A model generated the notes under the pieces. That model was not told the origin of the DNA. It was given only the letters and a program-made list of their open reading frames with translations, and ran no database searches. From positions 1,600,501-1,664,500 of the forward strand of contig NZ_AP027370.1 of NCBI RefSeq assembly GCF_030296055.1: 64,000 nt of DNA. Direction: 5' to 3'. This stretch comes from Hydrogenimonas cancrithermarum. Lineage in GTDB: Bacteria; Campylobacterota; Campylobacteria; Campylobacterales; Hydrogenimonadaceae. The position numbers and the translations under genes were made by a program. Shown here piece by piece: positions 3,454 to 60,252 of the stretch. The first letter of the stretch is position 1. Each line of letters opens with the position of its first letter.

Positions 3454-3476
3454 GGGTCAGGTGATAACCGATAACT
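3454..3476 (+). repeat. Left arm of a perfect 23-bp inverted repeat bracketing the RAYT gene
   Basis: Begins GGGTCAGGTGATAACC and is the exact reverse complement of 4297-4319. It lies about 50 bases upstream of the transposase ATG. The same sequence with one change recurs at 5414-5436 in the broken second copy. GTTATAA-type direct repeats lie just outside it (3431-3453). Confidence 0.88.
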
Positions 3477-3527: not shown

Positions 3528-4298
3528 ATGCCCCGCAAGCCCCGTATCGAGATTCCAGGATTTTATCATCTTGTCAACCGCGGTGTCGAACAAAGAACGG
3601 TATTCGAAGAACCGCAGGATTATAAAAAGTTCGAAGCGCTGGTATGCGAGGCAGCGAAAACTCATGGTGTCACCCTGCACAACTATTGCCTCATGAGCAA
3701 CCATTACCATCTACTTGTGGAAATAGAAAAGTCTGTGCTCTCGAAATTCATGCGACAGATCAATGCGGGTTACGCCATCTACTTCAACAAAAAATACCAT
3801 CGTAGCGGTCACCTGTGGCAGGGGCGTTTCAGGTCGTGGTACGTAACTGACGAGGCCTATCTCTATGCGTTGATTCTCTATATCGAGCAGAACCCTCTCA
3901 GAGCCGGGCTTGTAGAACGTCCCGAACGCTACCCCTATGCGACGGCCCGGTATTTCACAGGAGAAGAGAAGCTGCCGGAATGTCTGAAAGAGGCCTGGTT
4001 GATCACGAACTTCGAAAAAAACGAAAAAGCGCTTCGTGAAATGCTTTCGGTGCGTGTCAGCAAAGAAACGTTGAGTGAACTCGAAAAAGCTTCTTCGCTC
4101 GTTGAGGCGTCAATTCAAAAGGAAGAACCCCCTTCCGAACTTCTGGAAAAAGTGAAAATCGCCCAGAAAAGAGAAGAGCGTAATGCAAAGATTGTGCAAG
4201 CCTACGAGGCGGGCCATTCGCAACATGCCATCGCCAAAGCTGTGGGAATTTCCCAGCCGGCGGTGTATGGCATTTTACGCCGGATGAGGGAAAAGTAG
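3528..4298 (+). CDS. REP-associated tyrosine transposase (RAYT, IS200/IS605-like HUH nuclease)
   Basis: Single-strand DNA nuclease of the Y1 transposase superfamily, of the domesticated REP-associated type. The 256-residue product carries the HUH metal site in SNHYHLL (H59 and H61) and a likely catalytic tyrosine at Y118 in LYIEQNPLRAGLV, both in the usual RAYT positions. Residues about 222-256 form a C-terminal helix-turn-helix (HAIAKAVGISQPAVYGILRRM), an addition seen in some RAYTs that may bind target DNA. The gene is bracketed by a perfect 23-bp inverted repeat, and its TAG stop lies inside the right arm. It looks intact. REP-like palindromes elsewhere in the window are candidate substrates, but this is inference. 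Confidence 0.9.
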   Translation: MPRKPRIEIPGFYHLVNRGVEQRTVFEEPQDYKKFEALVCEAAKTHGVTLHNYCLMSNHYHLLVEIEKSVLSKFMRQINAGYAIYFNKKYHRSGHLWQGRFRSWYVTDEAYLYALILYIEQNPLRAGLVERPERYPYATARYFTGEEKLPECLKEAWLITNFEKNEKALREMLSVRVSKETLSELEKASSLVEASIQKEEPPSELLEKVKIAQKREERNAKIVQAYEAGHSQHAIAKAVGISQPAVYGILRRMREK

Positions 4299-4319
4299 TT
4301 ATCGGTTATCACCTGACCC
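4297..4319 (+). repeat. Right arm of the 23-bp inverted repeat at the RAYT gene
   Basis: Exact reverse complement of 3454-3476. It overlaps the last two bases of the transposase stop codon, so the repeat pair delimits the element tightly. Short ACTTATACTTAC repeats follow. Confidence 0.88.
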
Positions 4320-5397: not shown

Positions 5398-5547
5398 TTA
5401 TAAGAGTTATAAGGGTCAGGTGATAACCAATAACTTCAGAATTTTCACTGTAAAATCATAAAATCCCGACCTTCCAAAGAACACCATGCCCCGCAAGCCC
5501 CGTATCGAAATTCCAGGGTTTTACCATGTCATCAACCGCGGTGTCGA
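5398..5547 (+). mobile_element. Truncated second copy of the RAYT element (5' end only)
   Basis: About 150 bases closely match 3438-3590: the GTTATAA repeat, the 23-bp terminal repeat (5414-5436, one difference), the leader and the first codons of the transposase. Similarity ends abruptly after GTGTCGA at 5547, four bases before the AT-rich repeat that flanks the Fic gene. No right-hand half of the copy was found, so insertion of the Fic segment probably went with loss of the rest. Confidence 0.85.
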
Positions 5548-32398: not shown

Positions 32399-32902
32399 AT
32401 GCGATTTGTATCGATCATCATCGGAAGCAAGAGTGACTACGAGGTTATGAAAGAGTGCGGCAAGACATTGGAGAAGTTCGGGGTTCCGTATGAACTGATC
32501 ATCTCCTCGGCGCATCGAAGTCCCGAACGGACCAAAACCTACATCAAAGATGCCGAAGAGCGAGGGGCAGTCGTCTTTATCGCTGCGGCAGGCATGGCGG
32601 CGCACCTCGCAGGGGCCGTTGCGGCGACGACCATCAAGCCGGTGATCGGTGTCCCGATGAGTTCGTCCGACCTTCGCGGCGAGGATGCGTTGCTCAGTAC
32701 CGTCATGATGCCGGCAGGCATGCCTGTCGCGACATTGGCGATCGGAAAAGCGGGTGCCATCAACAGCGCCTACCTCGCGATGCAGATTTTGGCGATCGAC
32801 GATGACGAACTGAAGGTAAAGTTGACCGAAGACCGGCTGGCGAAAGCGAAAAAGGTCGAAACCGATTCGGCTGAGATCGAGGTGTTGATCTCGAAACAAT
32901 GA
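32399..32902 (+). CDS. purE: N5-carboxyaminoimidazole ribonucleotide mutase
   Basis: Converts N5-CAIR to CAIR in purine synthesis. The product is 167 residues, normal for class I PurE. It shows the substrate-binding loops IIGSKSDYEVM near residue 7, SAHRSPERT near 41 and GMAAHLAGAVAATTIKPVIGVPM near 68. An SD (GGAAAG) lies before the ATG. purK is not adjacent. Placed after a strong inverted repeat and before a REP-like palindrome. Confidence 0.94.
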   Translation: MRFVSIIIGSKSDYEVMKECGKTLEKFGVPYELIISSAHRSPERTKTYIKDAEERGAVVFIAAAGMAAHLAGAVAATTIKPVIGVPMSSSDLRGEDALLSTVMMPAGMPVATLAIGKAGAINSAYLAMQILAIDDDELKVKLTEDRLAKAKKVETDSAEIEVLISKQ

Positions 32903-32981
32903 GCCGGTTGGGCCGTGGACGGCCCGGCTGCCGAAGCAAACCCGGTGTTAACGCAGCTTTCCGGGCTCTGCCCGGAAAGCG
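32903..32981. repeat. REP-like palindromic element A (purE 3' flank)
   Basis: Starts one base after the purE stop. It contains a perfect 7-bp hairpin (GGGCCGT GG ACGGCCC), a 32-base block (32926-32957) that matches 60175-60206 at 29 of 32 positions, and a perfect 10-bp hairpin (CTTTCCGGGC TCT GCCCGGAAAG). The last hairpin may also act as the purE terminator. Confidence 0.72.
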
Positions 32982-32993
32982 TAAGGAATTGAA

Positions 32994-36012: not shown

Positions 36013-36731
36013 CGGTCGGCGAAGTCTACGGACGGCTCGATGAACTGAGTCCTTTCGAGCTGCAGGAGAAGTGGGACAACAGCGGGCTTCTGCTCGGTGA
36101 CGAATCCCAACGTATCGAGAAGGTCGTTCTAAGTGTCGATATCGATGCCGGGATGATCGAAGCGGCGGAAGAGAACACCCTTTTCGTTCTTCACCATCCG
36201 CTTATCTTTTCGGGGCTCAAACGCCTGCTCTGGAGCGAATACCCGGCCAATCTTCTGCGCGAAATGATCCGCAAAAACCATGCGATGATCGCCATGCATA
36301 CCAATTTCGACCAGACCCATCTCAACCGATACGTTTTCGAAAAGGTGCTGGGTTTTCAGGGTGCGGAGTGCGAAGGCTTTGTCTGTCGTGCCGAGGGCAA
36401 ATGGGAGGCCGGCCGGCTGTTGAAAGAGGTCAAAACGCGGCTTGGGCTCGAGACGCTTCGGATCGTCGGAAAAAAAGAGACGATCCGAAGCGTCTCCATG
36501 ACGACGGGATCGGGTGCGAGCCTGATGGATTCGGTCGAAGCCGATCTCTTTTTGACCGGCGACATCAAGTTTCACGATGCGATGAAAGCCCTTTCGAAAG
36601 GGCTGATGATGGCCGACATCGGCCACTTCGAGAGCGAGAAGTATTTCGCCGAAGCGTTGGGCGCACATTTGAAAAATTTGCCGATTCCGGTTATAATTGC
36701 ACAATCAATCAACCCCTTTGGCTATATTTGA
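36009..36731 (+). CDS. Nif3-like dinuclear metal protein (DUF34)
   Basis: Conserved metal-binding protein often mis-called GTP cyclohydrolase I type 2. The product is 240 residues from the GTG overlapping the glyQ stop. Family blocks are [14 protein letters not shown] near 20, the metal ligands in [12 protein letters not shown] near 62, [13 protein letters not shown] near 97 and [12 protein letters not shown] near 211. True function is unresolved. The neighbouring glyQ and zinc-ribbon genes are the usual context in C. jejuni as I recall it. Confidence 0.85.
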
Positions 36732-36751
36732 TATACGCTATCGAAAGCAAA

Positions 36752-36781
36752 GCAGAGGGCCCGCGCGTAGCTGAACCACGC
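36752..36781 (-). repeat. REP-like palindromic element C (upstream of the FlgZ-like gene)
   Basis: On the minus strand this 30-base block matches 60151-60180 at 25 positions. Two of the differences are the paired bases of the stem, GCGT..ACGC here against GCGC..GCGC there, so the hairpin is conserved through compensatory change. A second perfect 7-bp palindrome (TTTGTTT G AAACAAA) follows at 36782-36796. Confidence 0.68.
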
Positions 36782-36815
36782 TTTGTTTGAAACAAACATC
36801 AATGTAAGGAAATCC

Positions 36816-54418: not shown

Positions 54419-54500
54419 GGAGGCCGAAGAAGCGAAGCCCCTTCGGCTTCGCTTTGCGATGCCTGCGGCATGAAGCTCTTCCGCCATGGCGGGTTCACGC
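54419..54500. repeat. Cluster of short palindromes after the LysR gene
   Basis: A perfect 10-bp stem (AAGCGAAGCC / GGCTTCGCTT, 54430-54454) is followed by a 5-bp stem (ATGCC TGC GGCAT, 54459-54471) and the palindrome CCGCCATGGCGG. It lies between convergent genes and could terminate both, or be another REP-like cluster. Confidence 0.6.
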
Positions 54501-54531
54501 AACGCTAGGCCGTACGCAAACCTTTACCCTT

Positions 54532-58284: not shown

Positions 58285-58569
58285 ATGAATGGTGCTGAAC
58301 AGGGCAATATGCTGGCTTCATTGTTTCCGCTTCTCGTATTGTTCGCGATCTTCTATTTCCTGGTGATCCGTCCGCAGCAAAAGCAGGCGAAAAAGCACAA
58401 AGAGATGGTGGCATCGCTCAAAAAAGGTGACAAAGTCGTTACCACAGGCGGCTTGATGGCCGAAGTGGTCAAACCCGAAGAGGATTTTATCAAAGTCAAG
58501 CTTAACGACGATACGATCGTCAAACTCGTTCCCGATGCCGTAGCGAGAAAGATCGAGGATGAAGCTTAA
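58285..58569 (+). CDS. yajC: Sec translocase accessory protein YajC
   Basis: Single-pass membrane subunit of SecDF-YajC, 94 residues. N-terminal helix [25 protein letters not shown], then a small cytoplasmic domain ([17 protein letters not shown]). Divergent from lnt and overlapping secD by 11 bases. Confidence 0.95.
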
Positions 58570-60133
58570 TTACCGCGTCCTCGTTTTCATCGCCGCGGCG
58601 ATCTTCGGCCTGGCGCTCTCTGCGCCTTCTCTTCTGAATCTTCAAAAAGGTCCAAAAATCACGCTCGGCCTCGACCTGCAAGGCGGCCTGCATATGCTTC
58701 TGGGTGTCGATACCGACGAAGCGATCGAGTCGAAAATCAAATCGCTCGCCTCCTCTGTCAAGTATGCGGCCGAAGACGAAGATCTGATCATCGACGAGTT
58801 CAAAGTGCGTGACGGCAAGATCGGCTTCGAACTGCTCGACAAAGACGATATGCCGAAAATGGACGAGATTCTGAAGAAGATCGAAGGGATCGCCGTTCAG
58901 AAAGATGGCCTGAAGTATACGGTTTCGTTGACGCCACAGGAGATCGAATCGGTCAAGAAGTATGCGATCACCCAGGCCGTCGACACGATCCGAAACCGTC
59001 TCGACCAGTTCGGCCTGGCGGAGCCGACGGTCGCCAAGCAGGGCGAAGACAAGATCCTGGTCGAAGTACCCGGTATCAAGACGCCCGAGCAGGAGCAGCG
59101 CATCCGCGAGCTGATCGCCAAAGCGGCGCACCTGCAGCTGATGGCGATCGACGAGGAGCGTGCGGCGAACGTCGACCGCATGACACCGGCCGAGGCGGCG
59201 CAGTACGGCGATGTCATTTTAAAAGATGCCCAGAACCCGAACCGCAAATATCTGGTCAAAGAGATCCCGATTCTGGACGGTTCGATGCTGACCGACGCGC
59301 GCGTGGCGTTCGACAAGAACAATCAGCCGGTCATCAACTTCTCGCTCAACTCGCAGGGGGCGCAGATTTTCGGAGACTTCACCGGCAAAAACGTCGGCAA
59401 GCGGCTGGCGGTCGTGCTGGACAACCGCGTCTACAGCGCGCCGGTCATCCGTGAGCGTATTGGCGGCGGCAGCGGGCAGATAAGCGGCGGCTTCAGCGTC
59501 AAAGAGGCGCACGACGTGGCGATCGCGCTGCGATCGGGTGCACTGCTGGCCCCCGTCTTCATGGAAGAGAAGCGCAGTGTCGGGCCGAGTCTCGGAGCCG
59601 ACAGCATCAAAGCGTCGATGGTCGCTTTGATCACCGGTTTCATCGCCGTCGTCGTCTTTATGATTCTCTACTACGGCATCGCCGGGGCCGTGGCCGATGT
59701 GGCGCTTATCGTCAACCTCTTTTTGATTTTGGCGATCATGGCGCTCTTCGGCGCGACGCTCACGTTGCCGGGTATGGCAGGTATCGTCCTGACCGTCGGT
59801 ATGGCGGTCGATGCCAATGTCATCATCAACGAGCGGATACGCGAGCTTCTATATGAAGGCAAAAGCGTCGCCAAGGCGATCGAGCAGGGGTATGCCAACG
59901 CTTTCAGCGCGATTCTGGACGCCAACATCACCACGCTGATCGCGGCGGTGGTGCTCTACGCGTACGGTACCGGCCCGATCAAAGGGTTCGCGATCACGAT
60001 GAGCATCGGTATTCTGGCATCGATGCTGACGGCGATTCTGGGAACCCACGGTATCTGGCAGATGCTGGAATCAAAAATCGACAAGAACAGGCTGAATCGC
60101 TGGTTCGGCATCAAACTCGAAGGGGGTAGGTAG
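58559..60133 (+). CDS. secD: Protein-export membrane protein SecD
   Basis: Proton-driven subunit that assists protein release on the periplasmic side. The product is 524 residues. TM1, the conserved [16 protein letters not shown], a large P1 domain and the C-terminal TM2-6 with [17 protein letters not shown] (the conserved Asp in TM4) are all present. ATG overlaps yajC by 11 bases. It is separated from secF by a 119-base REP-like element, unusual for this pair. Confidence 0.96.
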
Positions 60134-60150
60134 ATGAAAAAGGTTAATGA

Positions 60151-60245
60151 GCGCGGTTTAGCTGCGCGTGGGCCCGCTGCCGAAGCGAACCCAGTGTTAA
60201 CGCAGCCCGAGGGGCTTGGCCGCTCGGGCGTATTCCCCGGAGGGG
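60151..60245. repeat. REP-like palindromic element B between secD and secF
   Basis: The most complete copy. Bases 60151-60180 match element C, and 60175-60206 match element A. A further stem (GCCCGAG / CTCGGGC, about 60205-60228) and a 5-bp stem (TCCCC GGA GGGGA) run up to the secF SD. It fills nearly all of the secD-secF gap. Confidence 0.75.
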
Positions 60246-60252
60246 AGAGCTG

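Follow-up and report, generated by a model that had tools for sequence, protein, structure and literature searches.

The window, i.e., the whole 64,000-nucleotide stretch of Hydrogenimonas cancrithermarum DNA that we analyzed, contains a structured repeat, element B, between the genes secD and secF. The stretch at 60151-60245 is predicted to fold into a row of hairpins, and the features of the locus are as follows.

58559-60133: secD, ending 5' of element B
60150..60232, + strand: element B, intact core (H1, H2, mini-hairpin, GYAG, H3); R1 model 100.2 bits, E=1.3e-21
60151..60167, + strand: hairpin 1 of B, GCGCGG TTTAG CTGCGC (alignment A2, columns 2-19)
60175..60187, + strand: hairpin 2 of B, CGCT GCCGA AGCG; 97.6% of cells paired
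60194..60201, + strand: mini-hairpin of B, GT GTTA AC; 100% of cells paired
60202..60205, + strand: GCAG tetranucleotide, foot of hairpin 3 in B
60206..60228, + strand: hairpin 3 of B, with a CTTTG-like loop; letters highly variable across copies
60233..60247, + strand: optional 3' hairpin 4, TTCCCC gga GGGGAG (from sequence and fold)
60253: start of secF, 3' of element B

The aligned copies have the order hairpin 1, linker GGGCCC, hairpin 2, a 2-bp mini-hairpin with a GTYA loop, GYAG, hairpin 3 and CGTA. A sequence-only reading of the window had described a palindrome family at this place; the family is real, but its unit is larger than the palindrome then noted, comprising ~83 nt and four hairpins in the extended and aligned copies, often with a variable 3' hairpin after them. 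In alignment A2, 92% of the hairpin 1 cells are paired across copies. The stem of hairpin 2 is found in other copies as CTCC/GGAG, CCCT/AGGG and CTCT/AGAG, with changes on both sides, and the mini-hairpin is found as GC..GC and GA..TC, with 9 double changes at one pair. Both-side changes occur across copies at 9 of the 10 pairs of hairpin 3, the foot of which reads GTAG in most copies and GCAG in B, A and others. Hairpin 4 of B overlaps the Shine-Dalgarno region of secF; different palindromes occupy this position in other copies.

Three further copies are present in the window:

32902..32983, + strand: element A, second intact copy; R1 76.0 bits, E=4.3e-16
36700..36782, - strand: element C, degenerate copy; R1 21.5 bits, E=0.0013
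54420..54516, - strand: fourth, decayed copy; R1 21.2 bits, E=0.0015

Elements A, B and C lie where they had been placed by the sequence-only reading, all three between ORFs, whereas the fourth copy had been missed. The match of B to C (opposite strand) at 25 of 30 bases, and the paired change from GCGC..GCGC to GCGT..ACGC in the B/C stem, can be read directly from the sequence, and the likeness of A and B holds as a close match over the middle part. Good alignment of element C is limited to its first ~31 nt (36752-36782, the 5' part); given this partial match and the weak score, C is a degenerate copy and not a third full member.

The compensatory stem changes proposed earlier proved to be a strong covariation signal. 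The stem cells pair at 91.9% in 21 copies that come almost entirely from the same genus, compared to 74.5% with shuffled partners and 36-47% with a slid partner column, and 78 cells are double-changed versus 24.7 in shuffles. Since the structure was drawn from these 21 copies, the count was repeated on an independent set of 37 copies from other genera, aligned using MAFFT without the model. The paired fraction was 92.3% (27-52% in the slid controls), and there were 207 double changes versus 62.7 in shuffles. The stems of the model matches contain 364 G.T and 55 A.C combinations, a count that should be read with the reservation that model scoring leans somewhat toward the allowed G.U. If a cruciform or the other strand were the folding form, no difference or the reverse difference is expected; conversely, a large excess of G.T over A.C is indicative of folding on the + strand. 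Judging by these substitution patterns, the fold is under selection on the + strand.

A blastn search of the window's own genome with B returned 13 places, namely the 100% self-match and 12 further ones (best non-self E=3e-18; eight non-self places at E below 0.001); among them, three tandem copies lie at contig position 2275966-2276222. The covariance-model search that the sequence-only reading had recommended yielded 19 matches at E<=0.1 in this genome, and the total for this Hydrogenimonas-like genome is about 15-19 copies, rather than only the three from which the family had been proposed. All 12 same-genus genomes have at least one model match, two of them only one weak match; beyond the genus, the model search gave 12 matches in one additional family and a single match in a further one. 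Among 200 genomes drawn evenly from the phylum, 20 are element-positive, across three families. Counted in full, one Sulfurospirillum genome has 56 copies, three others have 25-33 each, and a closed genome from a different genus (G204) has 20. In a pattern scan over about 85,000 species genomes, the titled records among the matches listed belong to Hydrogenimonas, Sulfuricurvum, Sulfurospirillum, Sulfurimonas, Sulfurovum and further relatives within Campylobacterota; two MAGs with vague titles, also among the matches listed, have 3' hairpins that are genus-typical for this group. The pattern and model searches both show a repeat family common to several genera of Campylobacterota, in line with its earlier assignment to the phylum.

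Several arrangements of copies were also observed. An array at L098:3263-4037 consists of full and partial copies with nine model matches and alternating unit lengths. Head-to-head inverted pairs of elements are found at L195, L196, L142, L157 and L169, several of them beside rRNA or tRNA genes, and at four places in genome G176. A single copy (L177) lies on a contig of a viral collection (IMG/VR), possibly host DNA.

The window has no Rfam match, and the matches around B are at chance level, up to E=10; a riboswitch, a ribozyme or another Rfam family was rejected because nothing scored above a curated threshold. No tRNA or tmRNA remnant is present in the window. An integron attC site also seems unlikely: the core GTTAACG/GTTAGCG is unlike the right box GTTRRRY, and a paired left box was not seen. 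Plasmid carriage gave no match, and phage carriage gave one viral contig only. Searches of the freely available literature on Campylobacterota repeats returned no description of the element; GTAG and CGTC repeats have been reported in Sulfurovum NBC37-1 (PMC3733652). The element is a small mobile structured repeat of Campylobacterota, a real and previously uncatalogued family.

The positions of the copies relative to genes are not uniform. Between co-directional genes, 58 loci are in sense and 24 in antisense orientation (p=2e-4; arrays were collapsed and the ORF calls are crude), and the median distance from the end of the core to the ORF start that follows is ~26 nt. Several genera have an element at the secD-secF, rpmJ and grpE-dnaK junctions. 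Other copies are placed in antisense, convergently or divergently, or as inverted pairs beside rRNA genes, and further copies lie beside tmRNA, tRNA, 16S and 23S genes. Three species of the genus to which the window belongs (L007, L095, L051) carry the element within a class A RNase P RNA: it interrupts the P12 arm, and the rest of the molecule still scores well against the model; these copies show six paired double changes and none broken. For all orthologous sets, there are 92 paired double changes versus 8 broken. It should be noted that, at orthologous sites, gene conversion among the copies might look like compensatory change. No common function was found among the downstream genes, and clustering of the ORFs beside about 200 copies, in a search for a transposase or reverse transcriptase, produced housekeeping families only. 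These placements, together with the covariation, suggest that the fold is likely to have a role at the RNA level.

Hairpins lie on either side of the core in Sulfurospirillum, and their outer ends are terminal inverted repeats, AGASTTCTTGCAAAACTC; the matching IS ends are AGACATCTTGCAAAACTC (genome G073). A search of five genomes for the end pattern found 20-38 places in four and 6 in the fifth, compared to 0-2 for the reversed control, and eight end pairs in one Sulfurospirillum genome are about 900 bp apart. These pairs bound the eight copies of a ~916-bp IS5-family element (L249-L256). The transposase of this IS is encoded in two frames, split at an A-run, and has HTH_Tnp_4 and DDE_Tnp_4 domains (NCBIfam IS5); its eight copies have 3-bp target duplications of the form ANT. 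To examine duplications at the small element, we used 26 full-length Sulfurospirillum elements, which contain the core and both ends and range from 121 to 145 bp (136 bp in most). Identical 3-bp flanks were found in 16 of the 26, compared to 18% after permutation, and identical 4-bp flanks in none of the 26. By its ends and flanks, the element is a 136-bp MITE of an IS5-type element, in Sulfurospirillum only. Since both the ends and the duplication length match those of the autonomous IS, an IS5-type DDE transposase is likely to move the Sulfurospirillum copies. Such a transposase acts on double-stranded DNA and does not explain a conserved core fold, so the reason for the fold is one that we infer. 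A further pair of inverted repeats, AGACTTCTTGCATAACCC, with a spacing of about 146 bp, was seen in genome G124 (C8:5783-5946 and C22:32210-32374) and is possibly a second MITE family.

Terminal inverted repeats and 3-bp duplications are both lacking in the Hydrogenimonas copies. Two loci in the window's own genome have the element between direct repeats, of 20 bp and of 26 bp or longer; both loci are empty in genome G009, where the repeat (the target) is single-copy, and the orthologous loci are also empty in several further species. Further direct repeats of up to 51 bp were found in Hydrogenimonas; such long repeats occur at only a few percent of copies. Some presumed long duplications had to be reassigned, as the direct repeats at L069 turned out to be the terminal inverted repeats that the MITE form carries, and the L132 and L044 repeats to be tandem spacer; thus, the raw count overstates the clean long duplications. 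The long direct repeats could also stem from a tandem duplication on which selection at overlapping genes then acted.

Taking these results together, we consider it probable that element B is one copy of a non-autonomous mobile family of Campylobacterota, moved in trans, with a structured core and an RNA fold that is tolerated in operons. The core, which contains no gene, would depend on a transposase supplied in trans, in Sulfurospirillum probably the IS5-type DDE enzyme, to which the matching ends point. After insertion, the element would usually be transcribed together with its neighbors, as its positions suggest, and a stable, self-contained RNA fold would make insertions into operons and into RNase P RNA tolerable. 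Across the copies, the stems of the core vary by paired changes, and its loops and linkers are retained. Some copies may later have become mRNA processing or translation elements.

A second interpretation is that the element is primarily a functional cis-acting RNA, such as a leader or processing element, that has spread by duplication and horizontal gene transfer, with transposon carriage being secondary. This would account for the sense bias, the short median distance to the next ORF start, the + strand fold, the occupation of the secD-secF, rpmJ and grpE-dnaK sites in several genera and the structure kept at orthologous sites. However, it is unlikely in view of downstream genes that share no function, the antisense, convergent and divergent placements, the inverted pairs next to rRNA genes, the insertion into RNase P RNA, arrays in which as many as nine copies lie in tandem, and the same locus being empty in many close relatives. 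A combined scheme, in which a phylum-restricted mobile RNA domain has one structured core recognized by some factor as folded RNA or as a single strand, serves host operons once inserted and is moved in genus-specific ways (the IS5-type MITE form in Sulfurospirillum; a long-duplication, possibly RNA-templated form in Hydrogenimonas), appears to us quite unlikely.

The sequence-only reading had favored a RAYT-REP system, on account of a RAYT gene in the same window. The relevant features are:

3454..3475, + strand: left 22-bp inverted repeat of the RAYT (sequence, pattern); unrelated to B
3528..4298, + strand: RAYT-like gene (Y1_Tnp + HTH), 256 aa; PF01797 E=2e-16
4298..4319, - strand: right 22-bp inverted repeat of the RAYT (sequence, pattern)

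The gene is indeed present (E=6e-22 against NF047646, just below the cut-off), but its membership in the element system is not supported, as it has its own, unrelated inverted repeats. It is bounded by the perfect 22-bp inverted repeat GGGTCAGGTGATAACCGATAAC; the repeat GGGTCAGGTGATAACC forms an inverted pair around it, and the first 16 bases of its inverted repeat have a third copy downstream, at 5413-5428. The gene and its repeats resemble a TIR-type tyrosine transposase unit, of the TIR-flanked kind that has been described (PMC3733652), and not a REPtron. The second RAYT of the genome, at L016 (1320-1410 and 1465-2130), has a different inverted repeat, GTAGCCTGTCCCC, in front. Among the listed RAYT and element positions, no RAYT is flanked by cognate element repeats, and the listed RAYTs of element-bearing genomes are kilobases away from the elements listed.

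That the resident RAYT moves the hairpins, as REPs, in the form of single-stranded DNA is very unlikely, although three observations agree with it: the GTAG-like foot of hairpin 3 in most copies, similar to the GTAG REPs described in PMC3733652; the conservation of structure rather than sequence, on one strand; and the higher frequency of RAYT genes in element-positive genomes (11 of 20, versus 19 of the 180 others). This association tracks genera that carry both, and B and A have GCAG, whereas the REP transposases studied require or strongly prefer a GTAG foot (PMC8266576). The Y1 transposase is present in the window's own genome, but eight of the nine element-bearing genomes that gave no RAYT match lack it, including the closed G204 with its 20 copies. 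Given the separate repeats, the lack of adjacency and the Y1-free genomes that bear the element, the RAYT link was set aside; an ancestral involvement of RAYT may have existed. Least probable of all is a retro-mobile, SINE-like element, the + strand RNA of which would be copied into DNA at staggered nicks with long target duplications, since the RNA-like covariation and the long Hydrogenimonas duplications without terminal inverted repeats that favor it are set against the lack of a reverse transcriptase family recurring near the elements, the DDE-type ends and 3-bp duplications in Sulfurospirillum, and the rarity of long direct repeats.

As a rule, a small repeat is confined to one species or genus and is conserved at the sequence level. 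In the present case, a single core fold has been maintained despite numerous paired changes in several families of one phylum; it occupies identical operon junctions in different genera and has become part of RNase P RNA. Hundreds of natural variants make it possible to ask whether the RNA fold is what keeps a mobile repeat in place, and the covariance model lets annotators label sequences that are now unlabelled.

The non-autonomous, structured family proposed here can be compared with four known systems. Like REP, REPIN and BIME sequences with RAYT, the element is palindromic and extragenic, with paired stem changes and, in most copies, a GTAG-like foot of hairpin 3; unlike them, it measures about 83-136 bp rather than 20-40, its copies are mostly single or in direct tandem, no RAYT flanked by the element was found, and it is abundant in Y1-free genomes. 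Rickettsia palindromic elements and similar repeats enter genes. The Campylobacterota element shares with them a hairpin repeat tolerated inside a functional gene (here, RNase P RNA), and differs in sequence, hosts and frequency. The likeness to IS5-type MITEs (136 bp, terminal inverted repeats, a 3-bp duplication and a matching autonomous IS) is confined to Sulfurospirillum, whereas the Hydrogenimonas copies and many others are without these ends and this duplication. The BOX elements of Streptococcus (PMC3049150) differ in that their module architecture is unrelated to that of the Campylobacterota core, which is found in several families of one phylum with strong paired stem changes, with ends that vary by genus and long target duplications in Hydrogenimonas. 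Nevertheless, when compared by architecture only, BOX appears to be the most similar of the known systems: both are small, modular and intergenic, with predicted RNA stem-loops, a module amplified in tandem, and ends like those of a resident IS in an element without its own transposase (PMC3049150).
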